DNA of 64,000 nt from Chrysophaeum taylorii (lineage: Eukaryota > Sar > Pelagophyceae > Pelagomonadales > Pelagomonadaceae). The stretch's first letter is position 1. Every line of letters starts with the position of its first letter. The stretch is taken from the NCBI GenBank assembly GCA_029834535.1, contig JAQMWT010000584.1:37575-101574 (forward strand), written 5' to 3'. A program made the translations under genes and the position numbers. Below, one piece after another: positions 5,411-59,900 of this stretch. The notes beneath the pieces are model-generated. The model was not told the origin of the DNA. It searched no databases and was given only the letters and a program-made list of their open reading frames with translations.

Positions 5411-5433
5411 CGAGAAGCGAGCGAGCGAGCAGC

Positions 5434-5991: not shown

Positions 5992-6093
5992 GGGATACGT
6001 ATCTTTCACGGGATACGTACGTATCTTTGTGAAATTGTTGTTCCGGGGCAAAAATCATCATCATCGCAAAAAGCGTCCTACGACGTACATACG

Positions 6094-6693: not shown

Positions 6694-6822
6694 CCTTGCG
6701 TCCTTTTTCGGCTCCAAAAACGCGCGGAATCGGGGTATTCTGATGCGGGTAAGGGAGGAGCAAACTCCTCTAAGGGTAAGAAAGAAAGAAGAAGGGCGTC
6801 CGTCTCGCGGGAGTAAACACCG
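6694..6822. promoter_or_regulatory. Divergent promoter region between MYND and SURF6 genes
   Basis: Only 129 bp separate the two divergent start codons. It is purine-rich on the plus strand (GAAAGAAAGAAGAAGG just before 6800) and contains no clear TATA box. A bidirectional promoter is inferred from the gene arrangement only. Confidence 0.5.
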
Positions 6823-7797: not shown

Positions 7798-8043
7798 TAA
7801 TTAACGTGCGCATAGTTATTTACGTTTACAAGTTACCCTGTTTTCTTAACTTCGAGCTCGGTTCCGGCGGAAACGTGAGCACTACTTGTCATGATTCGTC
7901 TGTTGTGGTATTGCCAACGGCCACCGTTGATTGATTCCTCCTGGATAATCGGGTGGTGCCTACAGTAGTACCACCTCGCGTCTTTGGGCCAGCGACCTGC
8001 AGACTATATATCGCCGCGTTTTTAGCGCATCTGTGGATAAATT

Positions 8044-8442
8044 TGGAGCGATTTGACCCTCTCCGGGTACATGGTAGAGACTGCGTGCAGTCTTAGGCGT
8101 GTACAGACCATTCCGCTTGTCACATGCTACTACACAAGGTAGGGATTTCGGCCCTAACTCCTTAAGGACATTAGGTCCCATAGAAGCTTTTACACTGACA
8201 ACGGGGAACGAAGTCTCTGTTAATTAAACAGAAAACCCCGTACCCGACGGTACGCACCTGGAGGCCTACTCCATGTTTGAAAGGAGCTTCAGACTGGGTT
8301 CTTCATAGTCATGAAAGATAAAAGGGCGGAAGGGTAAGGGAAGAAGGAGAGAGGGAAAGCCCTATTACGGAGAGAAAACCCTCGTGTAAAGATAGGTGTG
8401 AAATGTTCCAGTGTCGCACACATAATAGTGTAGCTCTCTGGA
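8044..8442 (-). repeat. 3' LTR of copia-1
   Basis: 399 bp, direct repeat of 21336-21732. The left flank AAATT (8039-8043) is the target duplication. The ends read TGGAG...CTGGA on the plus strand, so the canonical TG...CA is imperfect; a solo relative at 22290 does end in CA. ORF Y runs into this LTR and stops at 8309. Confidence 0.95.
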
Positions 8443-9268
8443 CCCCCTCAACGTATGGAAACGGTTTATGCATTTCAGACGTTCTTGAGGCGGAACTTGT
8501 GCAATATACATGAGAACAGTGAACAATGGAACAAACAACAACAGAACAGGACAATTTAATTATGACGTCGAGCGTGTTGTGATGTTGCGTAATCATTGCA
8601 TCACTCAAGTTGACCAAGGGTAATATAACAGAAGAAAGGAAGGACATAGCAGTATCCGGTGTAAGAGCGTGTAGGTCCAATGCAGGAATAACACGATCAT
8701 GTGCATCAGACAAAGCTGTGTGGGTGTCGTGAGCTGCTGCGTCGATTAAAACTCGCTGTGCCTCATTATAGGTGTCTGGGGGAAGCTGTCCAATAGACGA
8801 GATAAGTGACCGAGAAATGATATGGACAAATACAGCAGAAGACGGGATTATGGTGTCCTGATGCATTTGAAGACTTGACAAGATGTTGTCTAATAGAGAT
8901 ACATGTTTGATGTTCTCGATCACTTGAGTGTTTAAGTTTTCGTAAGTCTCTTGCATCTGTGTGAGAGACGTTAGTGCAAGCGATAGTTGTTGATCTCGTG
9001 CCATCAATTGCTGTTCGGTATTAGTGAGACGTAGGGATAAGGACCGAACCTCTTCTATTAATTGGTGTAAAGATTCGGCCATATTGTTGTCAGCTTTATC
9101 TGACGTGGGTTCAGCGGTTGGATTATCGATCGGCGTTGGTGAAGCATCTTCAGAAGAAGTATCATCTGAAAAGACATCAATTATGTCCGAAGGGTAGCTA
9201 ACCTGGATTAGCACATTTTTAAAGGCAGCTTGCTGGTCAAGTGATAGTTGACGAAAATAATTAAGCAT
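8309..9268 (-). CDS. copia-1 ORF Y, coiled-coil protein of unknown function
   Basis: The frame is open from about 9301; the first ATG is at 9268 (MLNYFRQLSL), giving 319 residues. An acidic Ser/Thr/Pro-rich stretch (about residues 35-65) is followed by a coiled coil (SLHQLIEEVRSLSLRLTNTE and QMQETYENLNTQVIENI) and Leu/Ile-rich helices with a hydrophobic Cys-containing segment. It is the last ORF before the 3' LTR; the final 45 residues are read from the LTR itself, so the native C-terminus may differ. No homologue is recognised, and neither truncated copia copy at 53-60 kb keeps it. It could be an accessory or envelope-like protein, but there is no signal peptide or clear fusion or glycoprotein feature, so no function is assigned. 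Confidence 0.6.
   Translation of the reverse strand: MLNYFRQLSLDQQAAFKNVLIQVSYPSDIIDVFSDDTSSEDASPTPIDNPTAEPTSDKADNNMAESLHQLIEEVRSLSLRLTNTEQQLMARDQQLSLALTSLTQMQETYENLNTQVIENIKHVSLLDNILSSLQMHQDTIIPSSAVFVHIISRSLISSIGQLPPDTYNEAQRVLIDAAAHDTHTALSDAHDRVIPALDLHALTPDTAMSFLSSVILPLVNLSDAMITQHHNTLDVIIKLSCSVVVCSIVHCSHVYCTSSASRTSEMHKPFPYVEGVQRATLLCVRHWNISHLSLHEGFLSVIGLSLSPSSLTLPPFYLS
8443..8449 (-). other. Polypurine tract of copia-1
   Basis: On the element's sense strand the LTR is directly preceded by GAGGGGG. The position, immediately 5' of the 3' LTR, fits the plus-strand DNA primer site. Confidence 0.7.
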
Positions 9269-14416: not shown

Positions 14417-14600
14417 GACGAGTTGGTTGTCAGTCACATCGCGGTCTCCTCGTCGCATGGCGACAAGCTTGATGGTCACTCTCCGCCGACCGACCTTTCG
14501 GCGCTCCTCGTCTACAGGCCCGTGATTCCGGACTGGCACCTGTCGGTCCGGCCTGGCTCCCATGCTCGGGAGAGGTCTGAAGTTAGTTAGTTAGTTAGTT
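14417..14600 (+). mobile_element. 5'-truncated SINE-like copy with (TTAG)n tail
   Basis: 184 bp matching the inner and 3' parts of the copy at 49821-50083 (inverted), from GACGAGTTGGTTGTCAGTC to CATGCTCGGGAGAGGTCTGA and a (AGTT)n tail at 14582-14600. The head is missing. It forms the left edge of the block inserted into the copia integrase region. No clear target duplication is seen. Confidence 0.75.
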
Positions 14601-32862: not shown

Positions 32863-35340
32863 GGGATCCGTCAAGTTTGGTCAAAAAGTTTGGTGAATTT
32901 CTTTCATGTTTGCTCGATTTTGATGTATGAATAAGGAAAAACTCACATGTGTGGTCACTTTCCATAGAAGTTAGGTCAGTTAAGTTTGGTCACTCCAAAG
33001 TTGCATTAAGTTTGATCAATCAACACTTCAAGTTTGATTATTTTCCTTGTAAGTTTGGTCAACAAGTTTGATCACTACTCCTCAAACTTCCACAGTATTG
33101 ACAAAACTTCGGCTTTTTAAATCAAACTTAAGGAGGCTTTTTTAAGGTGGCGCGTGAGCGCTTTTGGTGCGAAAATGCTTTAAAAACGAGAGATAGGTGC
33201 TGCAGCTACGCAGAAACTACCGCGGCGTTACACGCGCGGCATGGACACCCCCCATGACTGCCTTAGAAGGAGGTCCGTCCTAAGACAGCACGGCGATACG
33301 CAAGGAGAGCGGGCAGCGACACGCGGCCCCGAGAGCAGATTCCCACGGCTTGGCGTACTTAAGCTTGGCCCATTCTCGTACCTTCCATCGTTCGTAGAAG
33401 CCACCCAAACCGCGACTCACCACGGAGGTGTTGCCGTGGTCGTGCGTCATTCTTCAACAACAAGCGGACATAGGACACCAGACTTACACGGTCTGCGTGA
33501 GACGGATCACCCCATTCTGCATCCCAAAACTCGAGAGGGAGCGCGTCTTTGATAATCGACTCGGGGTTGAGAACGCGAAACTCGACGACCTCGAGAAACT
33601 GCGCGAGTAACGCCCCTCGAGCACCCAAAGATTGTAGTCCCACACTTGTGCGGGACCGTACAGGACCACGTTCAGGAGTTCCTCACCGTCGCGTACCCGA
33701 TCCGGAGTTAGCTGTCCAGCTTGATCATGGGACGGCAACGCGAGCACGTGCCGTTACGCCAGCATAAACAACTCGCACGACCGTAAGAGAACACCTCCTT
33801 ATCCTCCTCCTCCTCGCGCATCTCGACAACCCCGCCCTGCCGCAAGATCTCCCCGGGAGCTGCTGCTGCACCGTCGAGCACTGTACGAGAAAGTCGGCAA
33901 ATACAAGCTGCGGCGCGAAGGGATGTCAAGACGTCGACAGCCTCGTTCCGGAAGATCGCCGACACCACCCCTGTAATTCTAACCCAGTCATCAGTACGAG
34001 TCTAAAATATGACAAGTTTGATGTGATTGTTCGAAATTTGATCACACCAAATTGAATGCCTCCAAGTTTGACCATACAAACGCATCAACATGCGAACACT
34101 CGCAGAACAACATATACAAACATGGCCTGCGCAAGACAACGCTGATACCACGCTGTTTCGTCGCCCGAGATTATTCGGATGCGCCTTATTAGTTCGATGT
34201 TTATGACAGACTACAGCGAACGATCCCGGTTCGTCATCTCGTGCCTTTAGCGGATGACACTGTTGCAGATGTCTATCAAACGCATATGCCGAGAAGAGCC
34301 GCCTGACAGACTGAATAACTAACTAACTAACTTCAGACCTCTCCCGAGCATGGGAGCCAGGCCGGACCGGCAGGAGCCGGTGCGGAATCACAGAGGCAAA
34401 TCACGCAGTTGTGGGGCAGAGGCGAGGGACGAGGACGGACTCGTTGATGGTGGACCGCCACTGCGCGGTCTTGTGCGAGGTCGTGCAAAAGCGTCGTAGG
34501 CCGCGGACGTGTTGGTCCACGAACAATCGACCTGTCCGTCGCGCTCTGCCCAACCGAGCGAACCCCATCCCAACACGGACTTCCCGGGTGCTAACCGGCC
34601 AGCGAGCCGCCTGACTTGCCCTCCATAAAGCCCTTGATGAGGACCCACACGGCCTCGCAGAAGTGCTTCGCGCGATAGCTGGATCTTTGTCGGCAAGAAG
34701 GTTCGGAGCAGGTGTGCCTTTTAGCACACGTGACGGTATTTTCTACTTGCACATCACAACGAGCAGCACGCACATAAACGCTGCATCTTGCATATAGCAC
34801 TTGAACGACAGCGCTGTCGCGCTGTAGACCATGTTGTACACACCGTCAACTTGCTGCCCGTGTCGAACATCATCTGCTGCAAGTCGGCCTCGAGAACACA
34901 CCTGCTGAACTTGGCATCTTGGTCAGATCGAGTAAAGTGGAGCCTCGTATTTGCGCGCTCTGAGCTGCGACAGCGTACTCGGCGATCTCTCATAGTCGTT
35001 TACCTTCGCCTGGGCACGCGACTTCTTGTTTTCTTTCTCGGCGTCGTGGTCAACCGACGTCGGCGTGTTACCACCACGCTCCCGCTCGACCTGAGCGAAG
35101 CCCGCATCGATACCGTGTTCGTTTCGAAGTCGAAGGACGATCCGGAGTCACAGCGCGACGTGCAGAACCGCTGAAAGCTTGATCACGGCGGGCCTTGTTT
35201 TGTCATCGAACCGTATGTTTGCTCTCTAAGAGTACAAGTTTAGTCAACCAAGAGACGGATTGACCAAACTTAAGTGACCAAACTTGTTGAAGGTTTACGG
35301 TGACCAAACTTATATGGTGGTTGGAAACTTGACTTTTCCC
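32863..35340. mobile_element. MULE-like non-autonomous DNA transposon with 9-bp target duplication
   Basis: 2,478 bp. The ends are inverted repeats (left GGGATCCGTCAAGTTT, right complement GGGAAAAGTCAAGTTT) and are flanked by an exact 9-bp direct repeat ATAAAATTA (32854-32862 and 35341-35349). The first 200 bp contain about six direct AAGTTTGGTCA-like motifs, and the last 110 bp contain the same motif inverted (TGACCAAACTT), a subterminal array of probable transposase sites. A 9-bp duplication with GGG-type ends is characteristic of Mutator-like elements. The interior (33.2-34.0 and 34.6-35.2 kb) is GC-richer with broken frames and no recognisable transposase, so it is probably non-autonomous and may hold captured host sequence. 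A SINE-like copy is inserted at 34308. Confidence 0.85.
34308..34604 (-). mobile_element. SINE-like element with (TTAG)n tail inside the MULE
   Basis: 297 bp flanked by an 11-bp direct repeat AGCCGCCTGAC (34297-34307 and 34605-34615). In the sense (minus) direction it ends with CGGGAGAGGTCTGAAG and (TTAG)n. It shares its whole length with the copy at 44313. The long target duplication plus simple repeat tail indicate LINE-assisted retroposition. Confidence 0.82.
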
Positions 35341-44312: not shown

Positions 44313-44619
44313 AAACTAACTAACTTCAGACCTCTCCCGAGGCATGGGAGCCAGAGCATGGGAGCCAGGCCGGACAGGCAGGAGCCGATCCGGAATCACA
44401 GAGGAAAGTCACGCAGTTGGGGCAGAGGCGAGGGACGAGGACTCATTGATGACGGACCGCCAATGCGCGCGGTCTTGTGCGAAGTCGTGCAAAAGCGTCG
44501 CAGGACACGAACGTGTTGGTCCACGAACAATCGACCTGTCCGTCGCGTTCTGCCCAACCGAGCGAACCCTATCCCACCGCGAACTTTCCGGGTGCTAACC
44601 GGCCAGCCCGGGAGGCGAG
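44313..44619 (-). mobile_element. SINE-like element with (TTAG)n tail
   Basis: About 305 bp, homologous along its length to 34308-34604, with GCATGGGAGCCAG partly duplicated near 44342-44370. The tail in sense direction is GGTCTGAAG plus (TTAG)n. No clear target duplication was found. Confidence 0.75.
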
Positions 44620-45239
44620 CAGGCACCGTCTCACTCCGGGACGGCCGGGGCCGCCGCAGGGAGCAAGCGTGTTACGCGCCGTCCTCCATCGCAACCATAC
44701 GGTTAGCGATCACAGGGTTAGGGTCGTCGAAGGACGACAAGGAAAGGACATCCACGAGGCCTCGGCCACCTCGGCGAACCCCTCGACTAAGCCGTGCTCC
44801 CGGGGCCGAGGCCGCTCACGAAAACTTGTTATCAACGGCTTCAACAACGCGCATCGACACAATGACCGCGCTTGTGGCTCAAGAACATCGTTCTATCGAG
44901 ACCCTGAGCCGGCACAACGGATTAGGATCAGCACCGACACGACCTAGGTCGACAAACAGAAAGCGTGCGCACCAAGCACGTTGCGCCGGGTCCTGAAACA
45001 AGTTGCGGAGGTAGGTCGGGTCGTCGACGGACGCGTCGTCACTTGCTGCGGCCTCGTGGGTCCCGCCCGGTCTCGAGGGCGTTCTGCAGGTCTCATTTTC
45101 GTCTTCAGTCCGCTCGAGGGTTTTTTAAGGTCGACTGCTAAGAGGGGGGGGGTGTATGAAAATTTTGGTGCGAGGGGACATGAGGGTTGTGTGTAGTGGT
45201 TTTCTCAGATACCCGCCCCTCCTGGCCGGACCAGGGGCC
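44620..45239. other. Intergenic with mobile-element debris
   Basis: No gene recognised. 45115-45195 holds another copy of the GTCGACTGCTAAGAG box followed by a G-tract and TTTTGGTGCGAGGGGACATGA, shared in part with 26090-26170. The left part is GC-rich with stops in all frames. Confidence 0.45.
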
Positions 45240-45521
45240 TCAACAACCCTTTCTCCCAATCCGAACCGCGGGTGAAACCACCACACGCCCGATCTCAGCG
45301 CAATACCTCACGCCATCACGAAATCGGACAATCAAATGAGGGTAATATCGAGAAGACAGCAAGAAAGCAATACAAATGCCCGGTACGTTGGGTTCAGCGG
45401 AAGCGCAGGTGAGGGTGTCAAGATGACACCCCCCCATAAGTGCAAGGTCAATACCAGGGCAACAATCAGGGTAAGTCAGGTGGCAGGCAGGCAAGTGGGG
45501 GGAATGGGCGTTACTGCCACA
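45240..45521 (-). repeat. gypsy-1 3' LTR (far end approximate)
   Basis: In sense direction the LTR starts TGTGGCAGTAACGCC directly after a purine-rich stretch; the related element has TGTGGCGGCAACTCC at 63367, which supports the boundary. The inner end near 45240 is estimated because no second LTR is in the window. Confidence 0.6.
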
Positions 45522-45556: not shown

Positions 45557-48219
45557 TCAAGGGCGACGAATGTCACGCTCACGAATGGTACGATAAGCTC
45601 GTTCAGCTACATCAGCAGGAACTTTGTTGCTGTGGAGACCGAAGTTTGTGACGAGGACATCGATTTCATCCGGGCGAAAATCAGTCACACAGGGTTCACA
45701 GCCCTCCATGTTTGGTCGTAAACGTGTGAAGCTACCTCCGTCCGCATCTTTGTATTCTGGTCTTAAGCGTCGTTCAGCCAGAGGCATAGTAGGATCAAAG
45801 ACGCGAGGATCATCGCGCGGTCCCAAATCGGTATAGTAATGAAGCGCAACTGTATCATTGTCGTGGTCATATTCTTCGTAGACTTCGGCAACATAGAGAC
45901 GCTTCTTCCACGCGTTGGATCGTCCTTTCACCCTGAAAATCACGAACTTACCATGTTTGAACCGGTCGCGGTCCGAAGGTAAATGCAGAGGGGCGGAAGA
46001 AGTGTCGATGGTTGGCACTTTCAAAGGCTCAATCTGTTGTACAGATACTACAACCGATTCAGCATCATCGTCGTTGACGTCTTGAATTTCATAAACGACG
46101 GGAGAGATCTTTCTAGTAACCATGTAAGGTCCGCGCCGAATGGGCCGTAGCTTGTGGCGTGTCTTAGGCACGAAACGCAGAACATAATCACCTGGGGAAA
46201 ACTGGATGTCAATTTGGTGGGCATCATAGTTGAGTTTTTTGCTCTCCTGTGCTTTCTGGTGAGCTCGTGTAACGAGTCGACTATAAAATTCAAACTTGTT
46301 CTTAAAGTCCACCAAAATCTGATAACGTGATTGCGGTAGATCACGCTGTTCACTCAAAAGATTGTAATCGGGTGGTAACAGGGGTTGCTTGCCAGTACGC
46401 ATCATGAAAGGTGAAATCTTCGTTCCCGGAATGTACAACCTATTGTACATGAATGACACATATGGGAGGAAAGTCGACCAATCTGGCTGACGCTGTTCAT
46501 CGATCGCAGCTCGCAAGAAGGCTTTGATGAATCGATTGACACGCTCAGTATGATTACTCTGAGGGTGATACGGAAGGGTAGTACGATAACGTGCGTTGAA
46601 TTGACGAACAAACGTGCGAAATAACCTGTTCGCGAACTCATTTCCATTATCCGTGACTATGCACCGTGGGAGACATCCCTCAAGTAAAATCTTGTCCACA
46701 AACGCGTTCAAAATTGAATAATCATGCTTGGTGTTGAACAGAGCTAATTTCAAGAAATGCGATGCTGCATCGTACATTGCGAGTATGTACGTGTACAGGT
46801 CAGCGCCTCGCAGAGGTCCAATCAAATCCATACCTAGGACATAGCAATCTCCGACGCGATTCGGTTGACAGAGCAAGCCATGGCGTCTACGCATGGTGGA
46901 TCGAATCTTCTGGCAAATAACGCAAGCATTGACGAACTCATTAACTGATGATGAGACGTTTGGACACCAATACCGTTCCAAAATTTGAGTCGCCGTGGAG
47001 TCTCGTCCTACATGGCCTCCGAAGAATCCTCGGTGATGCATGGCGATCACACGCTTTCGCATAGACTGAGGGACCACAATAAGACGTTGAGAATCTGAAT
47101 CATCGACCTTATACAACACGTTGTCATCAACCTCATATGGTACGGATGACTGCTCGTCTTGATCTTTCTGTTCAGAGTCGAGCTTTCGTCTGATGCGCTT
47201 GCATGTTTCATCCTCAGCTTGTTCTTTCGCTATCTCATCGAGAGTAATCTCATCCTCCGCTTGATCTGCAAAAGGGAGACGTTCGACGGAGTCAACTGGC
47301 TCAGACTCGTACGAGAATTGAGGCGGTTGTACGTTCTGTCGCGTACTAACTGCTACCATAGCTGCGGTGGGTCCGCTGTCCTTGAGCATAGGCATCGTCA
47401 CCGAAGAGAAGGTGAAGCAAGCTGTGCCAGGGACATCGGTGGGGATTTCTTGGAAAATCAAAAAAGCTTCATTGATCGGTTCCCCGTCTTCATCTTTCTC
47501 GATCAATTTGTCGATAGGGTTGCGCGACAGACAATCCGGAATACGCATGCCAGGGGAGCTTCCAGGCTTGCATCCGAGCTCCCGGTCGAACGTAGCAAGC
47601 CGCATAGCCCATCGTGCTAACTGTCCCGACGTATGATTCGAATCCCGCAGAAACATTAAATTACGATGATCCGTCTCTAACTTCGTCTGATGACCTTCGA
47701 TATAAAGTCGGAAATTTTCGAGAGCAGAGAGTACTGCGAGGAGTTCCAAGCGCCGAGGATCGTATTTCCTCATCGACTTAGGCACGGTTCGACTCCAGTA
47801 CTCGATAACTCCCTCTTCGATTCTTTCTCTTCCATCGTCGTCAACGACTGGTACTTTTTGAAATAAGTAAGCACCCAGCCCATGCGCGGAAGCATCAGTT
47901 CGAATGTAGAAAGGTAACGAGTAATCAGGATGATAGACGCCCTTCGAAGTGACAATAGCCTCGATGATGGCATCCCAAGCTTCCTGACACTCTTTCGTCC
48001 ACTTGAATTTCACGTCCGGCAACGTCAGTTGTCTTAATGGCTCTGCAACTTTCGCAAAATTCCTTACATAATGCCGGCAAAAACCCCCCATTCCAAGGAA
48101 AGATCGCACTTGCCTCTTAGGGTCAGCATCCGACAAAGTGCCAGGAATTGGCATGTGTCTGATGGCTTCTAAAGACCTTGGTGATGGAAGAAGTCCGTTC
48201 GGGGCAGATAAATGACCCA
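45557..48219 (-). CDS. gypsy-1 pol: RT C-terminus, RNase H, integrase and C-terminal module
   Basis: About 887 codons continuing the RT in the +1 frame. FLGHLSAPNGLLPSP is the RT thumb; FYIRTDASAHGLGAYLF and RRLELLAVLSALENF belong to RNase H; the integrase zinc finger is HHRGFFGGH ... CVICQK; the DDE core is GMDLIGPLRG, IVTDNGNEF and HPQSNHTERVNRF. The C-terminal 150 residues hold an unassigned module (HGKFVIFRVKGRSNAWKKRL, YVAEVYEEYDHDNDTVALHY, ERRLRPEYKDADG) conserved in the second element at 63.4-64 kb; it could be a chromatin-targeting domain replacing the chromodomain of other gypsy elements. Complete after the frameshift at 48220-48233. Confidence 0.93.
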
Positions 48220-51180
48220 AAAACTCAAAACTCAATGACTTCTTGCATAAAATGAATCTTCTTGATCTTGACGCTGTACCCCTTCAAGGCGAGATGGGGA
48301 ATAACTTGCACAAGGCACTGCAAGTGATTCTTTGTATCTGCGTGACCGGCGAGAATATCGTCGATATATGCCACGAGATCACGATGTAGCCATTTCGACA
48401 AGTCAGTGTTCAACTGCGTGCAAAACAACCTTCCGGCTGGTTTGACTCCCAAAGGTAGACGCATGTAGCTGTACGCTCCCAGAGGACTAGTGAAGGTGAC
48501 CACATCCTGTGCATCTAGCGACAATCGTAAATTGTGATAGCCCCAACGAATATCCAAACTGGAACGACAAAACTTGCCGATGAGAAACATTAACGCGTCA
48601 GCTATGCTGACACTCGGCCAGCTATCATCCTTGAGCAATGCATTGAGGCGCCGTAGGTCGACAGCTGCTCTGTAAGCATTGGAAGTGCCAGGCCCAGCAC
48701 CTTTCTTAGGCAACATCAAAATAGGGAAACCCCATGGAGAATTCGCGGGACGAATAACTCCGTCTCGGGTCCATGCTTCAATCTGCATCCGCAAACATTC
48801 AATTTTTTCTTTCGACAACCGATATGGCGAGAGTTTGACGGGAGTCGGGTTCTCTTCTTTGAACCGGAGCGTCACTTCAGGTGAATCAACAGGTCTCATC
48901 ACATCATCGGAAAATGCCCACGAATACGAGATTAAATGCTTCATCATCAGCTTCTCGTCATCATCTAAAGCAGGATGCTCTGTAATACCCAATTCAGTCA
49001 TCACCTCTTCGACCTGCGCGACGGTCGGAGGGATGACCTGCATGCTCTCCTGACCCGCTAAATGAGGAGGCATCACCAGTAAAGGTTGACCATGTTCGTC
49101 GTGAGGCGCGTGCGCCCACGGAACGTCGTACTTATTAAAATACGCTGGTCGCTCTTTCGCGGTGCCTTCTTCTTCAGCAGTTGCGGAGGGCTTTTTGTCG
49201 ACTTGGTTGCTCTGCATAACAGCAGTGGCGACGGTGCCCCCTGCAAAAGATGAAGCCGTCCCAGGCGATGTAAGTGAAGGTGGTGGCGGGGTGGTGGGGG
49301 CAGCAGCTGATGGTGCAGGACTCGCAGGAGAATAGAGTTCATCGGGCGCAATCCATGATACGCTTCGAGTGGCAGGGTCGAGCGTTGGAATGCGCGACTC
49401 TACAGCAAAAGGTGAAAACCGTAGAATATGGTGATCAGGTTGGGCTAGCGTAGTCGTCGCAATATTCCGCAACTTACCCAAATTTCGAAGTGAAGGGCCA
49501 AACGAATTGTGCACTGCTAGCGCAATCCGCGTCATAGTCGCGGGTGGCACCATACTGCCAAGCATCTTCATAGCTGCTGTCTCTGAAAATGTCGCACCCC
49601 ATTGCCACGTAGCAGGAACGGTCATAATTTCCTGGTGCATCTGCAACGTGAGTGGACGGGTGTTCGAGAAATGAGGTCCTAGGTGGAGCTTATTGCGCGT
49701 CACTGTGAAGGCAGGGCCGATAGCCGGGCGCGTAGAGGAGAAATTGTTCACCATAATGAGCGGGTGACCACCTGTAAATCCCAACGTCGGCCCAAAACGG
49801 TCCCTTAAATTCGATGGTACTAACTAACTAACTAACTTCAGACCTCTCCCGGGCATGGGAGCCAGGCCGGACCGACAGGCGCCAGTCCGGAATCACGGGC
49901 CTGTAGACGAGGAGCGCCGAAAGGTCGGTCGGCGGAGAGTGACCATCAAGCTTGTTGCCATGCGACGAGGAGACCGCGATGTGACTGACAACCAACTCGT
50001 CGATAACCTTCCGTCTTCGCCCCCCGACCATACCCCGTCCCACTGCGAACGTTCCGGCTGCCAACCGGCCCGCCCGGGAGGCGAATTCGATGGTACACGC
50101 GATAATAAAGGCAGGTTCAAGCGAACATTGCACGCAAGTAGGCGTGTGCGCGAGCACAGCAATTCTGGTGTGTTACTATAGAAATCGACAATACGCGGCA
50201 CATAAAATTGGTGATGCACAAAAGGGATCACTGATGGTTCCTGCTCGAGCGTCCATCGTCCAATCACACAAGGTGCGTTGCGGAAGTGACGCAGGACCCA
50301 AGAAGTAATAGTAGCGCCCTTGCGTGCGTCCCTGTAGTGCAAATTGGCAGTCGACCCATAGATACACGGCGGACTGGCATGAAAATAAGAATGCTTCCAA
50401 AAATCTGAATGTAAATACGACAACACCAAGTCGTATGTACGACGATGAGATTTCCCCAACTCATGCAAAACATAGGGAATCTTCGGAAAATTGAGCTCAA
50501 AGGTGGCTCGGGCTTGAGGACAAGCATCCAAAGCCAGGACAATGCGAAATGAACTGCCATATAGCTCATTGCATCGCCGGATACCCAACGTTGATCCTCC
50601 AGCGCCAGCAAAGTAGACGACGACAAAGGTGTAGGTGATGGGTATCCAAACCAAGGAGGCGTGCTTAGATAGCAGCTCCTTAGCGGTCGCCTCCATCTCC
50701 ATTTCTGGTGTTTTTTTCACTTCTTCATCTGGAGGTGGCTGAGGAGGAGGTCTGTCACTCAAGACATCCTCCTCGACTTCATCGTCGTCAACAGCAGCCG
50801 TAAGAGTGGCATGACACACGTCATCAGTGGCATCTAGCTGCATGTTGACACATCCTTCATGCGGCATGATCTCGCCTTCGACCACCGGGACTTCGGGGTC
50901 GATGCCGATGTGTTCGTCACCAATGTGCTCCACAGCCACATGAACTTCGTTGGGCTCGTCAGCGCAATACGATGAATAGGAACCAGGTACTAGGCGGAGA
51001 TCTTGGAGGAGTGACCGATAAGGTCGGAATACATGACCCTTTTCCAGCGGCACATCGCACTCCATCTCCAAGAAGTACGGTTGGCTTGGAAGAAGAAATC
51101 GAGTACTCGTCACGTACGCGAAATGAGGGATGATATCTTCCTCGTCTGCAGGGCATTTAAGTTGGTCTTCCGCTCTTCAG
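48220..51180 (-). pseudogene. gypsy-1 C5 DNA methyltransferase fused to reverse transcriptase (split by SINE)
   Basis: One frame from about 51180 to 48225, interrupted by a SINE plus target duplication (276 bp, a multiple of three but with stops). After a 160-residue acidic/Pro linker come C5-MTase motifs: VVVYFAGAGGSTLGIRR (I, about 50620), VLALDACPQARATFELNFP (II), YFHASPPCIYGS (IV, catalytic Cys at 50366), RWTLEQEP (VI), LLCSRTRLLAC (VIII, Gln replaced by Cys), and beyond the SINE RPLTLQMHQEIMTVP (IX) and MLGSMVPPATMTRIA (X, about 49560). RT follows: ITEHPALDDD, LSPYRLSKEKIECL, WGFPILMLPKK, LDIRWGYHNLRL, PLGVKPAG and YIDD. RT ends where a 7-bp tandem duplication (AAAACTC twice, 48220-48233) shifts the frame. 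The MTase family methylates cytosine C5. Confidence 0.9.
49821..50083 (-). mobile_element. SINE-like element inserted in the gypsy methyltransferase
   Basis: 263 bp flanked by an exact 13-bp target duplication AATTCGATGGTAC (49808-49820 and 50084-50096). Sense (minus) head CGCCTCCCGGGCGGGCCGG, tail GGTCTGAAG plus (TTAG)n. Head and tail match the copies at 34.3 and 44.3 kb but the body differs and instead matches 14417-14600, so two subfamilies exist. Confidence 0.9.
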
Positions 51181-52315
51181 CAGTCTGATCACCGGGAGGA
51201 ACGTGATGGTGACTCGCTCTGATACGAATAGAGCGCAGTAGACTGTCATAACTCCACGGTTTACCAACTGGCGTCCAAGTTTGGATATTTCCGTATTGCA
51301 CAGCAAGCTTAGCTGTCGGGAACATCTGCACTACCTGCGGAGTCGCATCGAATGCATCATTGTAAAGGACAATTCCATGCTGGTCTTGTGGCGAGGCGGA
51401 AGTCCGATTCTTAAGAACTCCAATGGTCACTTCAGAACGCCGAAAAATAGCTCTCTCTGTCGCATAATCCAAAATCGTACCCAAGAGTCGTAATTCTCGT
51501 GCTCCTAATAGTAACTGCCCATTCGTTTGACCAACGAAGAACATGAGCAGCATGGATGTCGTCGGCACCAAGGAGATCCGGAGGATGACCCATTCTCGAA
51601 TAGCAGCCCCCGAACCTCCTGACCCATTTAGAGTACGAATCGTAGGGAGTGGCTGACGATAGATGATTTTGCCGTCACGATCAAGTTTGCGATACAAGCG
51701 GTGATCGATGTATGGGGAATCAGCCATGCCATCCAAACCGGCAGCGATGATGGAATATTTCGAACCATCTAGCGAAGAGATAGCCATAGGCACATACGTC
51801 AAAGAGGCGGATCTTGTGCCATCGTACCTTACGGCTTTATTTTCACGATGGTCGTGATCCTGAGTGGTATTCAACGCAGTCTGAGGGCAGAAACTCTCGA
51901 AATCCGAAGAGATGGAACGGTGAGCGGCATAACGCTCGGCACAGTCGTCCCTCGGTGGCACTATATCCATGGCAACCAAGGTATCTTGTCCCACACGAAC
52001 AATCGTATACCCCAATTCGTCACGATTATCTTCGTCTTCCGAGAGAACTCGAGGTGCAACTCCAGTCACTTCGGTACTTCGCTCCTGCTCCTCCACCCAT
52101 GCATCTTCAGTGATGACCAAAAAGGAAGGAGGTTCATTGGTCACCAGGGGAATAGCCTTCTGCAGAGAAGCTATCATCATCGCCCCCAACCTCGTCATCG
52201 TCATACACGTTGCCCTCCATGAGCTCAGAATACTGCACAGTGCAGTAGTCCGCTCGCTTAGTGTCATCCTGATCTTCGCCAAGCACTTCAAGCCACTGAG
52301 CGGCGACACCATCAT
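51110..52315 (-). CDS. gypsy-1 protease region
   Basis: Frame +1 relative to gag, overlapping its last 180 bp; about 400 codons. The first 60 codons are antisense-like noise and the real entry probably lies inside the overlap. SIIAAGLDGMADSPYIDHRL followed by KLDRDGKII is the aspartic protease active site region, but the usual D-S/T-G reads D-G-M, one residue short. Downstream FVGQTNGQLLLGARELRLLG fits the second half of retropepsins (hydrophobic-hydrophobic-Gly). The C-terminus overlaps the methyltransferase frame, which is -1 relative, over about 70 bp. Whether the frame changes are programmed or decay cannot be told from one copy. Confidence 0.7.
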   Translation of the reverse strand: MMVSPLSGLKCLAKIRMTLSERTTALCSILSSWRATCMTMTRLGAMMIASLQKAIPLVTNEPPSFLVITEDAWVEEQERSTEVTGVAPRVLSEDEDNRDELGYTIVRVGQDTLVAMDIVPPRDDCAERYAAHRSISSDFESFCPQTALNTTQDHDHRENKAVRYDGTRSASLTYVPMAISSLDGSKYSIIAAGLDGMADSPYIDHRLYRKLDRDGKIIYRQPLPTIRTLNGSGGSGAAIREWVILRISLVPTTSMLLMFFVGQTNGQLLLGARELRLLGTILDYATERAIFRRSEVTIGVLKNRTSASPQDQHGIVLYNDAFDATPQVVQMFPTAKLAVQYGNIQTWTPVGKPWSYDSLLRSIRIRASHHHVPPGDQTAEERKTNLNALQTRKISSLISRT

Positions 52316-53105
52316 TGCGCTGGCTAGGGTTCGCTCTCTGAGACTGTTGCCCTCTACCCGGCGGAGCCGTCTGCTGTGCTTGACGAAGCAAGCTCATCGT
52401 GTTGAGAGCCGTAGTCAGATCCTCTAGGCGCACCGAGGTCTGAGCGGTCCGCTGTACTGCGGGCTGCCTTCGGACCACCTGCTGTTGAGTGCCTGCAACC
52501 AAACGCTGTTGACTGCCTGCAACCAGCTGCGGTTGACCTGCATCTGGAACCTGTGCTGCTGTGTAGACCACCTGCGGCTGTTGCACAACGCGCGGCGCTA
52601 GCTGAGTCACTGAAGCGTGTCCTGCTGCAGCTAAAAGCGCCCGTCGGTATTGCTCCTGTCCCTCTGGCGTCGCTGGAAAACCCGCATTCGTCAACGTCTG
52701 AGCAGCACGTCTCTTCCTCGAGGGATTGTCCGGCGCAGGACACACACCGTTGTCGTGGTAAAAACTACCATGCCGGCCGCAACTAAGGCACGTCGTAATT
52801 GCTTGACGCGTATTGGTATCTATCCCTTGTGGTAGCCAGGTTCCAAATCCCGAGTCAGCAACATAACCAACCCGCTGTACTGGCTGCAACTGCTGCATCT
52901 CCTGCTCTCTCCTCATCCGTGGTGCGCGCTCCTTTCCCTTCTCCTTAATCGCATCTTCGATGTTGGCAGTAGGGTTGGCTTCCAGAATCTTGGAAATCGG
53001 GATGGTCAATTGAATGACATCGTTGAGGGTGAGAGTAGATGCTTTCATATGCGGTGAGTTCTGAGCAAGTTCGACGCTCGTCCGCAAGCGCTCAGACTTG
53101 AGACT
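52134..53105 (-). CDS. gypsy-1 gag C-terminal part with variant zinc knuckle
   Basis: About 320 codons; no ATG near the left junction, as the 5' half of gag is deleted at 53105. A Cys/His cluster CLSCGRHGSFYHDNGVC (C-x2-C-x7-H-x4-C) resembles a nucleocapsid knuckle with a longer middle spacing. The remainder is Gln/Ala/Val/Pro-rich with QQ-QQLVAG-like short repeats and an acidic C-terminus (YDDDEVGGDDDS). Gag would bind genomic RNA and form particles. Confidence 0.75.
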   Translation of the reverse strand, partial: SLKSERLRTSVELAQNSPHMKASTLTLNDVIQLTIPISKILEANPTANIEDAIKEKGKERAPRMRREQEMQQLQPVQRVGYVADSGFGTWLPQGIDTNTRQAITTCLSCGRHGSFYHDNGVCPAPDNPSRKRRAAQTLTNAGFPATPEGQEQYRRALLAAAGHASVTQLAPRVVQQPQVVYTAAQVPDAGQPQLVAGSQQRLVAGTQQQVVRRQPAVQRTAQTSVRLEDLTTALNTMSLLRQAQQTAPPGRGQQSQRANPSQRNDGVAAQWLEVLGEDQDDTKRADYCTVQYSELMEGNVYDDDEVGGDDDSFSAEGYSPGDQ

Positions 53106-53935
53106 CTCATGTGTGCAGCTGGATCATTATAGCACGAAAGATGAAAGGACTGTCGACTATTCCGAATTAACGCTGCCACGTGCAACGACAAATTACACAT
53201 GACACAGATCAACAGAAAGAATGGGCGCGGTACGTCAAAACAATGTGAAGCATGTTGATCTGACGCAAGGTGGTCCTCGATGATTTTAATGATTTTGTCC
53301 GTTTTAAGCTCATCTTCGGTGCAAATGGCGAGTACAAGGGGCGTACCCGGCGCATTGGTTTTGTTAATACATTTGGTACACGCCACGTGTACTTTGACAA
53401 CGCCTTTAATGGGTGGGTATCGATGAAATCGAATACCCTCGTTTGTCGGTATGTTAGGCGCGTTCCGGATGCGCTTCGCCTTTAGACACAACAGTGAGCT
53501 CAAGAATTGGAGGTTGTCAACGCAGTTAGTTTGTTGTGCCTCCGTAAGCAGTTGTTGGATGGATTGATGCCAACATTGAGGATCCTTAGGTGGTGGTAGC
53601 AAAAAATTCGGTGGCTGGGTGCCAAGCGAAAGAACGTTCCCTGACATCATCGCCATAGCATCAAATTTACAATGCTTGAGCAAGAAGTACTCAGTGTTTG
53701 CTACGTGCGATTTAGTATGATGTTGGACTTTTTGCGATTTGGGAGTCACTGGCGAGGACTGATTTCCTTGAGCAATCGAAAGGTAAGTTTGATGCTTCCG
53801 ATTAGGAGAACTGGTTGGAGCAACGCCTGGATTTAGTGCATTAAAAGGAGAGGATAATGATGACATGCCACCACGTCCACGGTTCAGTACAGAATAACGT
53901 CGGCTCGCAGCATCCTTGTTCTTGGCAGGGTTCAT
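53106..53935 (-). pseudogene. ORF X of copia copy 2, C-terminally truncated
   Basis: Starts MNPAKNKDAASRR at ATG 53935 and parallels copia-1 ORF X through CTKC, HASHCFDVPRPF and LLICVMC to NDPAAHM, where homology stops and gypsy sequence takes over. It lacks the last about 65 residues of the intact protein. Confidence 0.85.
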
Positions 53936-53967
53936 TTTATAGAGGTCCCCACATTGCGTATTTCATT

Positions 53968-56520
53968 TCATTTCACATTTTGGCGAGCCACGATGCCGTT
54001 GTATATGAGGGTTAGTTTAACGTCATTTCGGACATAGTGAAGGGTAAGTGTTAAGCGTCGTGCTGAGCTATGGGTTTGTTGTAAGCCAAGTAACGTGCGG
54101 AATCTGGTGAAGAGCGGAGCACCAAAGGGTTTAGTGAATCCGTCAGCGATGTTCTGAGTACCGGAAACATGATGTAAGCGAATACGTTTTAGATGTACGT
54201 AATCGCGAATACGAAACCAGCGTGTGCTGATAGCTTTGGCCTTAGTCGCACTGTCAGGATTATTTGATAGATGGATAGCAGAAGCAGAATCCCCAAGTAT
54301 AGGGCTGTTACGTATGAACGACATGTCTGATGGGAGAGGGTTGTCATGATCTAATAACAAATCTTTCCCTGGAGGTTGGCGAAGATAGTAGTATGGGTTT
54401 ATAGCGAGTGCCATTTCCGTTAACAATTTGCGTAACCAGACCACATCATCGGCACACATATTAAGGGCGATGAGTTCACTCTCATGCGTAGAAGTAGTTG
54501 TGATAGGCTGTAGTTTGGACTTCCAAGTGATGAGAGAACCGAACAAAAAGATGGCGTAGCCAGTTGTAGACTTGCGGTCTTGTTCATAAGAGGGTGCGTT
54601 ATCGGCATCAACGAACGCGACCAATGGATCAAAGTTACCTGAATTGACTTGTTCTTTAGTGCAATCCAACATGGTTGCCATATCAGTACGATTGCCGATG
54701 AGAAGTCTAAGGTGGTCCATTAGAGCGGAAGAGCCAGAGTAGTACCATAGTCGAAGATTGCGATTTTCGGGCTTGCGCAAATAGCGGAGAGTTAGTTAGT
54801 TAGTTACTGTAAGTACTTGAACACGCAGAAATGCTGGATTATGCACTCCTCGGGAACAACGAATAAGGCTTTGGGATAGATCAGGGCGACAGGCCAACTG
54901 TACAAAAGTGAGCTTGCCAAGTAAGGTGGAGATTGTGTGAAGAACAAACTTGTCCATATCAGAAGATGGTTCTCCAGTTTTATAAGTGGTTGATGGTGAC
55001 ATCGGTGTAGAGGTAGGACGTAACTGTATTAGAATGGGGTACTCTTCGAACAATGCATCAAGTTTAACTTGACAGTCACGTGAGATGTAACCATCAGTAG
55101 TACGCGTTATGCGCATGCCTAAGAGAGTATAAACTCCTTTAAAGGTGTTGGCTCAGTATTCCTTTTTCGTGCCTTGCTGGAATTCACGACGTAGAGATTC
55201 CGAGATGCACGTGATAACAACATCATCCACTGAGAGCGTGCAAAGTAAAAACGTAGCGTCAGCTTGAACTTTAGCGTAGATGCATGTATCTGTTCGAAAC
55301 GCGTATAGCCCAATGAGTCAAAGAAGCCATTTATGGTTTGATTCCAAAGGGCAGGACTCTGTCATAATCCATAAAGGGATTTAAGTAGTTTTGGGAGACG
55401 ACGTCCTTGATATTTTGCATCTTCAGGATCGAGAAGGTAAATACCCTGTGGCAATGTAACATAGACATGAGAATCTATGGGAGCTTGAACAAAAGCGTTG
55501 GGTACATCGACGTGGTAGACTCGAAGTCGCAGGTGAGCTGCTAGCGCCAGAACACAACGGATGCCAGAAAGCTGCGCCATAGGACTAAATGTGTTAAAAA
55601 AGTCAGTGCCCAGAGAAGCTAAGAATCCTCGTAGGACCAGGCGCGCTTTGTGCTTGAATTTTATATTCGTCCGGACCAACAGTGCTGGGGTCTTGGGCCT
55701 TGGTAAGATGGGTGATTGCGTAAGAAGCGACCTTATCGCTAGTGTGAGCGTGATCGGGGTCTTCGACAAGTTGAACAACTAGTGGAGGATCATCTCCAAA
55801 GTGGGCCTCAATGTAATGAGATTGCTCGGTGGTGCAGTCTTCGATGGCGGAGAGGTGAGGCTCGGAGTCACCATAAGAAGCGTCATTATGATCCAAAATG
55901 GAATGGGGTGTGAGCAAAGCATAAGCATATTGAGCGGGAGGGACTTGGAAAGCGTTAGAGTGTTCAGAAATAAGATGAACGAGAGCACGAGGAAGGTGAA
56001 AGTCAGCAAGGCTGAAGTCGTCGAAGAGATGAACAGGAGTGGCATCCGTCGATGGACGGCTAAGGCTCCTATGACACATAGCGGAAGAAGAGTGGGAAAG
56101 CACTTGGTGAACATGATGATGAAGGGATGGTGTAAATTCCCCTCTGGAGGTATAGCCGTCCAGTGGATGCCATGAGCAACATGAAGGGAGTGGAGGGTGG
56201 GGTCGCAGAAAGTGATATACTGCTTGGAGAGGTCATACTTGAAGTCAGCAAGCGTACCACCAGCTTGTTTATAAGCGGCAACAGTTGGCGAAGCAATACG
56301 AGTAAGAACATCCTTGAGATTAGTCTTGCGACGAGGTTGAGGGTGATGAGGACCACGGGTGAGACGAAGGCCATCCTGGGAATAGAGAGACCGGTAAGAC
56401 GGTAAAATGGGTAAAGTGTGGGAGGACACTTCAGATGTGGGAGGTGTGGTGACAGAAGCAGCGGGTGCAGTAGCAGCTGGAGCACATGCGGGAACGGAAG
56501 AAGGAGCACGGGCGAGAGAC
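53968..56520 (-). pseudogene. pol of copia copy 2 (integrase linker, RT, RNase H)
   Basis: Follows copia-1 pol but with several lesions: about 210 bp of RT deleted near 55655 (GPDEYKI joined to KHKARLVL), a TGA at 55364-55362 where copy 3 has CGA (LKSLYGL then Arg), a frame change near 55150, and a (TTAG)n insertion at about 54787-54805 that splits RT from RNase H. RNase H is otherwise complete (VAFVDADN, RKSTTGYAIF, HESELIAL, GDSASAIHL). Confidence 0.88.
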
Positions 56521-56885
56521 CAACATTGAGGATCCTTAGGTGACGGTAACAAAAAGTTTGGTGGTTGAGTACCAAGCGAAAGAACGTTCCCAGACATCAT
56601 CGCCATAACGTCGAATTTGCAGTGTTTCAGCAGATAGTACTCTGTGCTTTTAACATGTGTGTTAGTATTATGTTGAGTTGATCTTGACGTGGGAGTCACC
56701 GGTGTTTTATTTCCTTGAGCAACAGAAAGATATGTCTGTTGTTTACGGCTATTGGGAGAGCCAGTAGGGGCAAGTCCCGGGTTCAGAGCATTAAAAGGTG
56801 AGGACAGTGCAGATATGCCACCACGTCCACGATTCAATACTGAGTATCGTCGGCTCGCGGCGTCCTTGGTCTTGGCAGGATTCAT
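56521..56885 (-). pseudogene. ORF X of copia copy 3, N-terminal fragment fused to integrase linker of copy 2
   Basis: ATG 56885 (MNPAKTKDAASRRYS) to PKDPQCW, then the frame continues directly into the copy 2 integrase linker (PACAPAATAPAAS...), creating a chimeric open frame to 55779. Confidence 0.85.
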
Positions 56886-56918
56886 TTTATGGAGATCACA
56901 TTTTTTTTTTTAATGTTT

Positions 56919-59900
56919 TCAGCGAGCCGCAATTGCCGTTTTCCATGAGGGATAGTTTAATGTCATTGCGGACATAGTAAAGGGTAATGATAAAGTATCT
57001 TGCTGGGCTATGGGCTGTTGTAGACCAAGTAACGTGCGAAATCTAGTGAAAAGAGGAGCACCAAAGGGTTTAGTGAAGCCATCAGCGATATTTTTGGTGC
57101 CAGAAACATGGTGCAAGCGAATACGCCTTAGGTGCACATAGTCACGAATACGAAACCAGCGTGTGCTAATGGCTTTGGCTTTGGTCGCACTGTCAGGATT
57201 ATTTGACAGATGGATAGCAGAAGCAGAGTCTCCAAGTATAGGACTGTTGCGCATAAATGACATGTCCGATGGGAGAGGGTTGTCGTGAGCATCATAATCT
57301 AATAGCAATTCTGTCCCTGGAGGTTGGCGAAGATAGTATTGCGGGTTTATAGCAAAAGCCATTTCCGTTAACAGTTTACGTAACCAGACCACATCATCAG
57401 CACACATATTATGGGCAATAAGTTCACTCTCATGCGTGGAAGTAGCTGTGATAGGCTGTAGTTAGGACTTCCAAGTGATGAGGGAACCAAATTTTGTGGA
57501 TTTGCGATCTTGTTCATAAGATGGTTCATTATCAGCATCGACGAACGCGACCAGTGGATCAAAATTACCTGAATCCACTTGTTCTTTAGTGTAATCCAAC
57601 ATGGTTGCCATATCGGTACGATTGCCGATGAGAAATCTAAGATGGTCCATTAGAGCGGAAGAACCAGAGTAGTACCATAGTCGAAGATTGCGATTTTCAG
57701 GTTTGCGCAAAAAGCGAAGAGTTCCTGTTAATACTTGGACGTGCAAGTATGCTGGATTATGCATTCCTCGGGAACAGCGACTGAGGCTTTGTGATAAATC
57801 AGGGCGACAGGCCAACTGTACAAAGGCGAGCTTGCCAAGTAAGATGGAGAAGGTGTGTTGGATGAACTTGTCCATATCAGAGGATGGCTATCCAGTTTTA
57901 TATGTAGTTGAAGGGGACATAGGAGTTGATGTGGGACGTAACTGCGTTAAGATGGGATACTCTTCAAACAATGCATCAATCTTTGCTTGGCAATCAAGTG
58001 AGATGGAGCCATCGGTAGTGCGAGTTATGCGCATACCTAAGAGAGTATGAACTTCATCAAAGTTTTCAACAGAGTATTCTTCTTCATGGCTTGTTGGAAT
58101 TCACGACGTAGACTTTCCGATGTACAGATGATAGCAACATCATCCACTGATAAAGTACAAAGTAAAAACGTAGCATCGGATTGGACTTTGGCATAGATGC
58201 AGGTATCTGTTCGAAAGCGTTTATAGCCTAGCGTGTCGAAGAAGCTATTTATGGTTTGGTTCCAAAGTGCAGGACTCTGTCGTAATCCATAAAGAGATTT
58301 GAGTAGTTTTTGGAGACGTCGTCCTTGGTATTTGGCATCTTCAGGATCCAGTAGGTGAATACCTTGTGGCAATTTAACGTGGACATGAGAGTCTACAGGG
58401 GCTTGAACGAAAGAATTAGGTACGTCTATGTGGCAGACGGGAAGTCGGAGGTGGGCTGCGAGCGCCAGAACACAACGGATACCAGTGAGCTGCGCCATTG
58501 GACTAAATGTGTTAAAAAAGTCGGTGCCCAGGGAAGCTAAGAATCCTCGTAGAACCAGTCTCGCTTTATGTTTGGCGCCATTGGACTAAATGTGTTAAAA
58601 AAGTCGGTGCCCAGGGAAGCTAAGAATCCTCGTAGAACCAGTCTCGCTTTATGTTTGATGTATTCGCCGGCAGCGTTGGTTTTTATACGTAATACCAGTC
58701 GGGTATCAATAGGCTTGGAGTTGACCATAGGCAACGAGAGTTTAAAACAGCCAAAGTTGACAATGCCAAAAATCTCCTTGGAAATCGCGGAGATATAAGT
58801 CTTACGATCAGCGTCAGAAAGACCTTTGAGGCAGGTCAACTCATATTCATCATTCTTGACATCCTCGGCTTGAATTTTATATTCGTCCGGACCAACAGTG
58901 CAGGGATCTTGAGCATGAGTAAGGTGGATGATGGTGTAAGAATCAACAATAGCGTTAGTATGATCGGGATCGGGATCTTCGACAAGCTGAATAACTAGTA
59001 AAGGGTCATCTCCAAGGTGTGCATCAATGTAATGAGACTGCACAGTGATGTAGTCTTCAATGGCGGAGAGGTGAGGCTCGGAGGCACCATAAGAAGCATC
59101 GTCATGATCCAAAATGGAATGGGGCGTGAGCAAAGCATAAGCATATTGAGCGGGAGGAACTCGAAAAGCTTGAGCGTGTTCAGAAATTAGATGAACAAGA
59201 GCGCGAGGAAGGTGAAGGTCCGAGAAGCTAGAGTCGTCGATGAGATGAACAAGAGTGGCATCCGCCGACGGGTGGTTAAGGCTACTATGACACATACCAG
59301 AAGAAGACTGGAATAGCGCTTGGTGAACATGATGATGAAGAGGCTATGTAAATTCCCCCTCTGGAGGCATAGCCATCCAGTGGGTGCCATGAGCAATATG
59401 AAGGGAGTGGAGGGTGGGGTCGCAAAAAGTTATATACTGCTTGGAGAGGCCATACTTGAAGTCAGCAAGCGCACCACCAGCTTGTTTATAAGCGGCAACG
59501 GCTGGCGAAGCAATACGAGTGAGGACAGCCTTGAGATTAGTCTTGCGACGAGGCTGAGGGTGATTAGGACCGCGGGTAGACGAAGGACATCTTGGGAGTA
59601 TAGGGACCGATAGGATTGTAAAATGGGTAAAGTGGTGGATGACACTTCAGATGCCGGAGGTGTGGCGACAGAAGCAGCGGGTGCAGAAGCAGCGGGAGCA
59701 CATGCGGGAACGGGAGTAGGAGCGTGTGCGAGGGGTGAAGGAGTCCCCCTCTTGTGTTCAATGTCGTTGGACATATCATTCCCCCTCTGCTCCGCATCAC
59801 TGGGGGTGCTGTGAACAGAAAAGGGTATTTCGGGTGAAGGTGCAGGTTGGGGATGTTCTTCGTAATCGGGAGGAGAATTAGGATGAGGAAAGGTAAGTTT

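Follow-up and report, generated by a model that had tools for sequence, protein, structure and literature searches.

A cytosine-5 methyltransferase domain under purifying selection in the Pol frame of Ty3/gypsy retrotransposons of the pelagophyte Chrysophaeum taylorii

Here we describe a cytosine-5 methyltransferase (C5-MTase; MTase below) in phase with the reverse transcriptase (RT) of a Ty3/gypsy long terminal repeat (LTR) retrotransposon of the pelagophyte alga Chrysophaeum taylorii. The DNA analysed is a stretch of 64,000 nucleotides of contig JAQMWT010000584.1 (assembly GCA_029834535.1, positions 37,575 to 101,574 of the forward strand), referred to as the window, and it holds, on the minus strand, a broken copy of an element family designated F1. 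The MTase, which an earlier sequence-only reading had placed between protease and RT, is borne out at this position, after the presumed protease, by Pfam matches, natural open frames, more than 60 further places in the genome, and selection. The best explanation, to which we give a probability of roughly 0.55, is that a selected, prokaryote-type MTase within gag-pol would act on the element's own complementary DNA (cDNA), a role that we infer.

All seven C5-MTase motifs of that reading, along with the YIDD motif of RT, were located in the correct order on the minus strand inside 48220..51180. The domain is encoded in two minus-strand frames, the first (51176-49893) reading through into an insert and the second (49823-48225) continuing into RT, and its two halves match PF00145 collinearly, each below the Pfam cut-off. 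The corresponding features are the following.

50085 to 50660, minus strand: MTase domain, first part, with motifs I, II, IV, VI, and VIII (PF00145 profile positions 7-75, expectation value (E) 0.0023)
50595-50612, minus strand: motif I, FAGAGG (sequence)
50511-50534, minus strand: motif II, ALDACPQA (sequence)
50364-50375, minus strand: motif IV, SPPC (sequence)
50235-50249, minus strand: motif VI, LEQEP (sequence)
50142-50156, minus strand: motif VIII, CSRTR (sequence)
49500 to 49808, minus strand: MTase domain, second part, with motifs IX and X (PF00145 profile positions 261-321, E 0.0036)
49629-49658, minus strand: motif IX, RPLTLQMHQE (sequence)
49542-49559, minus strand: motif X, GSMVPP (sequence)
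49131 to 49499, minus strand: Pro/Ala/Ser-rich linker from MTase to RT (sequence; substitution rates given below)
48231 to 48710, minus strand: RT (RVT_1, E 2e-12; YIDD at 48357-48368)

Natural uninterrupted genomic copies, used in place of an in silico excision of the insert, exceed the PF00145 cut-off (E 1.1e-9, 5.4e-9, and 2.6e-6), which confirms the family assignment of the frame. Across nine natural sequences from four subfamilies of F1 and a second gypsy family, F3, the S-P-P-C of motif IV, the Glu of motif VI, the R-x-R of motif VIII, and the three glycines of motif I are invariant (9/9), whereas the first Pro of motif X is replaced by Ser in one of the nine.

The genome searched comprised 70.8 Mb in 697 contigs; the genome paper reports 71 Mbp on 702 contigs, and its main text contains no word starting with "transpos" or "repeat" (PMC10366177). 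Three retroelement lineages in this genome carry MTases, namely gypsy F1, gypsy F3, and copia F2. With the first part of the MTase as query, at least 103 F1 matches were obtained (98 of 2876 candidates scored), and the longest F1 frames in which no stop interrupts the match measure 2129 (contig C225), 2115 (C311), 1815 (C421), and 1812 (C345) amino acids. The intact copies for which the sequence-only reading had proposed a search do occur, since MTase and RT stand uninterrupted in one open frame in loci L003 and L043. Among the matches listed, an MTase match lies no more than 3 kb upstream in 68 of 103 RT matches, or 65 of 99 loci once pieces belonging to a single locus are counted together; 14 of the other 34 RT loci were inspected, and eight of these also carry MTase sequence, whole or partial (six, L065-L070, and partial in L074 and L076). 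F3, represented by L045, has the same domain order, with an MTase 42% and an RT 60% identical to those of F1. In L045 itself, RT and MTase are read in different phases; on contig C5, F3 MTase and RNaseH/integrase matches share open frames of 3067 and 3063 amino acids, with RT placed between them by position. The F3 search yielded at least 135 matches (135 of 1003 candidates scored), and because 14 of the 135 are 99-100% identical, the query's own place included, this family seems to have been mobile in the recent past. F2 (L044, G000:C96:60500-69499, open reading frame 2597-8452) is a Ty1/copia element that matches RVT_2 (E 6.9e-39) and, below threshold, rve (0.0039). Its PF00145 domain (E 1.3e-8) follows a protease-like segment with DGGAS and precedes integrase, and the family has at least 95 matches (89 of 704 candidates scored). 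The copia MTase is dissimilar to the gypsy MTase (profile-profile probability 0.2); a recent common origin of the two is not supported, no similarity being seen between the profiles, although these are shallow. The broken state of the window copy might suggest a dead passenger or an assembly artefact, that is, a host or bacterial gene sequence sitting in the element by chance, but F1 has at least 103 matches and F3 at least 135, spread over many contigs and under purifying selection, and we reject this explanation as having next to no probability.

Selection was estimated as the ratio of nonsynonymous to synonymous divergence (dN/dS, NG86) on natural frames, comparing the F1b copy L043 with five F1a copies. 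The MTase gives 0.054-0.064 in all five comparisons, and RT gives 0.055 (L003) and 0.051 (L017) in the two copies whose RT reading is clean to the locus end, with 0.095, 0.135, and 0.209 in L002, L004, and L010, where the reading ends early (137 and 45 amino acids) or runs into an insert (L004). Between MTase and RT the linker is relaxed, at 0.36-0.42, and the protease-MTase segment stands at 0.23-0.25. In F3, nine of nine comparisons of F3a with F3b MTases fall at 0.056-0.095, some with linker residues included. Recent F1a copies, decayed ones mixed in, give 0.24 over 55 pairs (11 copies), and the F2 MTase gives 0.11-0.12 in two comparisons, not below its same-frame neighbours at 0.10-0.18. 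Purifying selection on the F1 MTase thus roughly matches in strength the selection on RT, and it is strong within F3 too, which implies that replicating lineages need the MTase about as much as they need RT; the domain probably helps the retroelement.

From sequence comparisons we conclude that the F1 MTase is of a putative prokaryote/phage type, its nearest detectable relatives being phage and bacterial C5-MTases, not DNMT5. A protein search with profile A1, limited to candidates of 0.55-1.75 times the profile length, returned two relatives, the C5-MTases P0018 (E 2e-3), which exceeds the TIGR00675 dcm cut-off, and P0019 (E 0.01), and no annotated algal protein. Three related loci were found in IMG/VR at 31-35%, and one cyanophage MTase in a phage collection (E 7e-4); 124 pattern matches in a prokaryote genome collection included no relative. 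Alignment by hhalign of the retroelement MTase with P0018, P0019, L046, and L047 gave a probability of 97.9 (E 4.2e-13, columns 13-289 of 293), a comparison whose choice of partners was not blind because all four had previously been found with the family's own profile; the copia F2 MTase reached a probability of 68 against the same four. Origin from the host DNMT5 is not supported by profile comparison (probability 0.3, no similarity to the MTase-SNF2 family). The PDB, which includes DNMT3 chains, gave no significant match, the best being bacterial 8yf3, 3g7u, and DNMT2-type chains, and with profile A3 at E up to 10 no Dnmt3 chain appeared there, while 3g7u and three DNMT2-type chains did appear, none of them significant. 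Beyond this species, the alignment with P0003, a transcript product of Chrysoreinhardia (Sarcinochrysidales), covers motif X and the linker and extends into RT (35% over 379 columns including gaps), and P0004 aligns from just past motif X. Occurrence of the MTase-RT fusion in both Chrysoreinhardia and Chrysophaeum (Pelagomonadales) means that it seems either to predate these pelagophyte orders or to have crossed between them. A bacterial/phage-type enzyme would also suit action against others, through methylation of invading DNA-virus or competitor DNA, for which selection could operate via host benefit, and a passage on retroelement methylases suggests such a role in general (PMC6338049). We consider this very unlikely here, as a domain set within the replication polyprotein and held under RT-like constraint fits the element's own cycle.

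In the preferred reading, the MTase would be made as part of Pol, then either set free or left joined to RT in one protein, and packaged with the element RNA. It would methylate cDNA soon after its synthesis, inside the particle or during integration, so that a new copy would arrive pre-marked, with less host recognition or degradation and/or with its chromatin state set. The host DNMT5 could maintain the mark, and a trans-acting MTase could also serve MTase-less deletion derivatives. A genome scan with PF00145, in which 123 of 474 candidates were scored and which may have overlooked genes that are weak, intron-split, or unscored, gave at least 121 matches, of which 107 were assigned to F1, F2, or F3, two are host genes, and 12 were not assigned individually. 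The host genes found outside elements are DNMT2 (a 360-amino-acid DNMT2-type protein on C634) and DNMT5 (C621), the latter a 2086-amino-acid MTase and SNF2 frame that is 100% identical to CTAYLR_010750 over residues 150-650; the scan did not recover DNMT6, a gene that could escape it if weak or intron-split. Passages of the literature describe DNMT3 as absent from most stramenopiles except diatoms, place DNMT6 in Pelagophyceae (Hoguin et al., PMC9998398), and describe DNMT5 as a maintenance enzyme (PMC10538959). Because only DNMT2 and the maintenance enzyme DNMT5 were found outside elements among the matches listed, one could go further and regard the retroelements as the alga's main de novo cytosine MTases, with gypsy and copia elements, each bearing a prokaryote-type MTase of its own captured after the protease, seeding methylation on their own cDNA and DNMT5 propagating it. 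This extension is doubtful; if true, the de novo part of the host methylation system would come from its parasites.

Several observations weigh against an MTase that methylates the element's own cDNA. Motif VI, canonically E-N-V, reads E-Q-E in seven of the nine natural sequences, E-R-E in L056, and E-Q-G in L057, and motif VIII of the F1 and F3 MTases is without its usual first Gln. AlphaFold models, which cover the window's first MTase part only, have pLDDT values of 33.1 and 36.8. The synonymous divergence between F1a and F1b MTases is 1.5-1.7, near saturation, and the F1a-F1b dN/dS values are therefore approximate. In at least six F1 copies an in-frame deletion has removed the MTase entirely or almost entirely, CpG observed/expected ratios are 1.03-1.20 in elements versus 1.26 and 1.47 in two host-gene loci, and a footprint of CpG decay was not found, transitions at CpG being just 1.2-1.3 times those at CHH. 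The departures in motifs VI and VIII could mean that the MTase has little or no catalytic activity and functions in Pol as a structural or nucleic-acid-binding part, which we judge quite improbable, because such a role would hardly preserve the catalytic Cys, the Glu, and R-x-R in 9/9 sequences.

The sequence-only reading had named intact family members without this segment as the finding that would tell against the domain. F1 copies without the segment do exist, but they look derived from MTase-bearing parents rather than ancestral, and the domain stands. Among the 14 inspected RT loci, the MTase is wholly lost in L062, L063, and L064, only motif I is left in L071 and L072, and L073 is rearranged at the MTase position. 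One in-frame deletion, which spans 5087 to 6196 in L043 coordinates and removes 1107 nucleotides net, is common to L062, L063, L064, and a further locus, L075; L062, L063, and L064 resemble one another at about 98-99%. L064 keeps a frame of 1102 amino acids from inside gag into RT. A pattern for the 5087-6196 junction occurs at four places, compared with 18 for the intact left boundary, and at two of those 18 (C51 and C311:80163) a second deletion (5213 to 6196, net 981 nucleotides) keeps only motif I. Splicing was rejected as the source, the breakpoints being without GT...AG. L062, L071, L072, and L075 are F1b derivatives that share a further gag-protease deletion (L043 coordinates 2911-4693), which suggests a ladder of non-autonomous forms. 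Because the MTase-less copies look derived, they tell against a strict need for the MTase in cis, while leaving the domain itself unchallenged; if they spread by retrotransposition, the enzyme would be supplied in trans or be dispensable in each round. Natural MTase-deleted derivatives beside intact copies make the benefit of a DNMT to a retrotransposon directly testable.

With regard to the methylation trace, singleton C>T frequencies are 0.165 in CG, 0.142 in CHG, and 0.137 in CHH, with A>G at 0.165, in an analysis whose flank filter may hide hypermutable sites. Pairwise comparisons, from which L029 and L030 were left out, gave transitions of 0.046 in CG versus 0.039 in CHH with noisy flanks included (transversions 1.07 times), and, in the MTase-side region alone, transitions of 0.032 versus 0.024 and transversions of 0.017 versus 0.010 (1.6 times). 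Near-expected CpG and barely raised transitions weigh against CpG methylation that was heavy, persisted for long, and led to deamination, and they do not exclude methylation at the cDNA stage, outside CpG, or well repaired. An RNA 5-methylcytosine methyltransferase acting on the element's genomic RNA or tRNA primer would likewise leave no CpG footprint, as observed. C5-MTase folds can act on RNA, as in DNMT2, whose PDB chains profile A3 matches weakly (E 0.57-0.87), and the element's RNA is packaged together with Pol. We nevertheless hold an RNA role to be unlikely, given that the DNMT2 scores are non-significant and that family or annotation marks the detectable relatives as DNA MTases (P0018 by TIGR00675 dcm, and the cyanophage record). 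De Mendoza et al. suggest, in the part on SymbioLINE, an RNA role for its DNMTs that are inactive on DNA (PMC5890265). For cDNA methylation, native and whole-genome-amplified nanopore libraries are described as made for C. taylorii (PMC10366177), and the amplified library would serve as an unmethylated control.

The window copy itself looks dead, because its MTase is interrupted by the insert and its frames are out of phase: the gag-like, protease-like, MTase, and integrase frames are not all in one phase. Between 52334 and 45466 it can be aligned piecewise with L043, an F1b copy, the insert lying among the pieces, and part of the 3′ LTR is the sole LTR portion found; the F1b copy on C225 has a repeat of 340-357 nucleotides at both ends, 90% alike, of which the 3′ repeat runs off the contig. 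Its minus-strand frames outside the MTase are gag-like (53123-52134), presumed protease (52393-51110), and RNase H with integrase (48283-45557), and Pfam recovers the Ty3/gypsy order RT, RNase H, integrase with an RVT_1-type RT. The protease is labelled by position and by a D-G-x-A motif at the expected place, with no Pfam match there. The insert is absent at the same point in the six F1a copies compared (L002, L003, L004, L012, L017, and L022). The remaining features are listed below.

52134 to 53123, minus strand: gag-like frame (open reading frame; no Pfam match)
52755-52790, minus strand: knuckle-like motif CLSCGRHGSFYH in the gag-like frame (sequence)
51110 to 52393, minus strand: presumed protease segment (labelled by position and motif; no Pfam match)
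51704-51736, minus strand: LDGMADSPYID in the presumed protease (sequence)
51479-51511, minus strand: LLGARELRLLG in the presumed protease (sequence)
49821 to 50083, unstranded: insert of 263 bp resembling a short interspersed nuclear element (SINE), with a GTTA/AGTT tetranucleotide tail (target-site duplication and comparison with other copies)
49808-49820 and 50084-50096, unstranded: 13-bp target-site duplication flanking the insert (sequence)
47588 to 48001, minus strand: RNase H (RT_RNaseH, E 1.9e-24)
46898 to 47074, minus strand: integrase zinc-binding domain (Integrase_H2C2, E 9.2e-16)
46562 to 46831, minus strand: integrase core (rve, E 4.9e-6, below the Pfam cut-off)
46052 to 46168, minus strand: integrase C-terminal region, p58/SH3-like (Integrase_p58_C, E 2.7e-6)
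45560 to 46051, minus strand: C-terminal extension of about 160 amino acids past the p58/SH3-like match (no Pfam match)
45204 to 45466, unstranded: part of the 3′ LTR (matches the LTR of F1b copy L043/L050)

Pieces related to the SINE-like insert lie elsewhere in the window at 14417-14595, 34318-34391, 44314-44399, and 44558-44618. This repeat was probably active recently, because it also occurs, at 98% likeness, within the element copies L004 and L045. The window further holds, at 53045-59732, a pair of incomplete copia-type copies that resemble each other and lie about 2.9-3.2 kb from one another. They comprise gag-like and RT/RNase H pieces, and inspection by eye recognised no MTase, protease, or integrase in them; one of them contains an 83-bp tandem duplication (58492-58657).

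Retroelement-borne DNMTs had been reported earlier from dinoflagellates and a charophyte, as captures of Dnmt3-like or orphan type, and the precedents named by the sequence-only reading (a dinoflagellate and a charophyte; de Mendoza et al. 2018) agree with passages of PMC5890265. A search of open PMC papers, with subscription papers and preprints mostly outside it, found no report of retroelement C5-MTases in pelagophytes among the matches listed; for stramenopiles it gave a general remark on DAM/DCM-bearing elements in "Stramenopiles", without detail (PMC6338049), and DNMT3 in LTR Copia and DIRS elements is mentioned in a passage of PMC12344493. The stramenopile host, the prokaryote-type enzyme, and the parallel capture by gypsy and copia elements are apparently new; one small, long-read-sequenced algal genome holds two dissimilar C5-MTases in corresponding gypsy and copia slots. 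The host DNMT5 (an SNF2 fusion of about 2080 amino acids) and DNMT2 share PF00145 with the retroelement MTase, DNMT5 without a profile match to it. Dcm-like phage and bacterial MTases (P0018, P0019, L046 and L047 from IMG/VR, and that of Aphanizomenon phage vB_AphaS-CL131) resemble it in FAGxGGSS-LG, LNFP after motif II, and SPPC, but they are stand-alone, carry ENV and QxRxR, and are 24-28% identical to the window's first MTase part. SymbioDIRS-Dnmt3 and SymbioLINE-Dnmt of Symbiodinium are, as passages of PMC5890265 describe them, likewise high-copy retroelements with C5-MTases, the DIRS type sharing the RT frame; they differ in being DIRS and LINE elements, not Ty3 or Ty1, with enzymes of Dnmt3 or an orphan class. 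The precedent in the same passages is KnitGypsy-Dnmt3 of Klebsormidium nitens, a Gypsy LTR element in several copies with a C5-MTase inside the Pol frame under purifying selection (Ka/Ks < 0.2), as the F1 MTase is. However, KnitGypsy is described as having a Dnmt3-type enzyme thought to be host-derived, a DIRS-like repeat arrangement, and a streptophyte host, and by that description F1 is set apart by its putative prokaryote/phage-type MTase and its stramenopile host.
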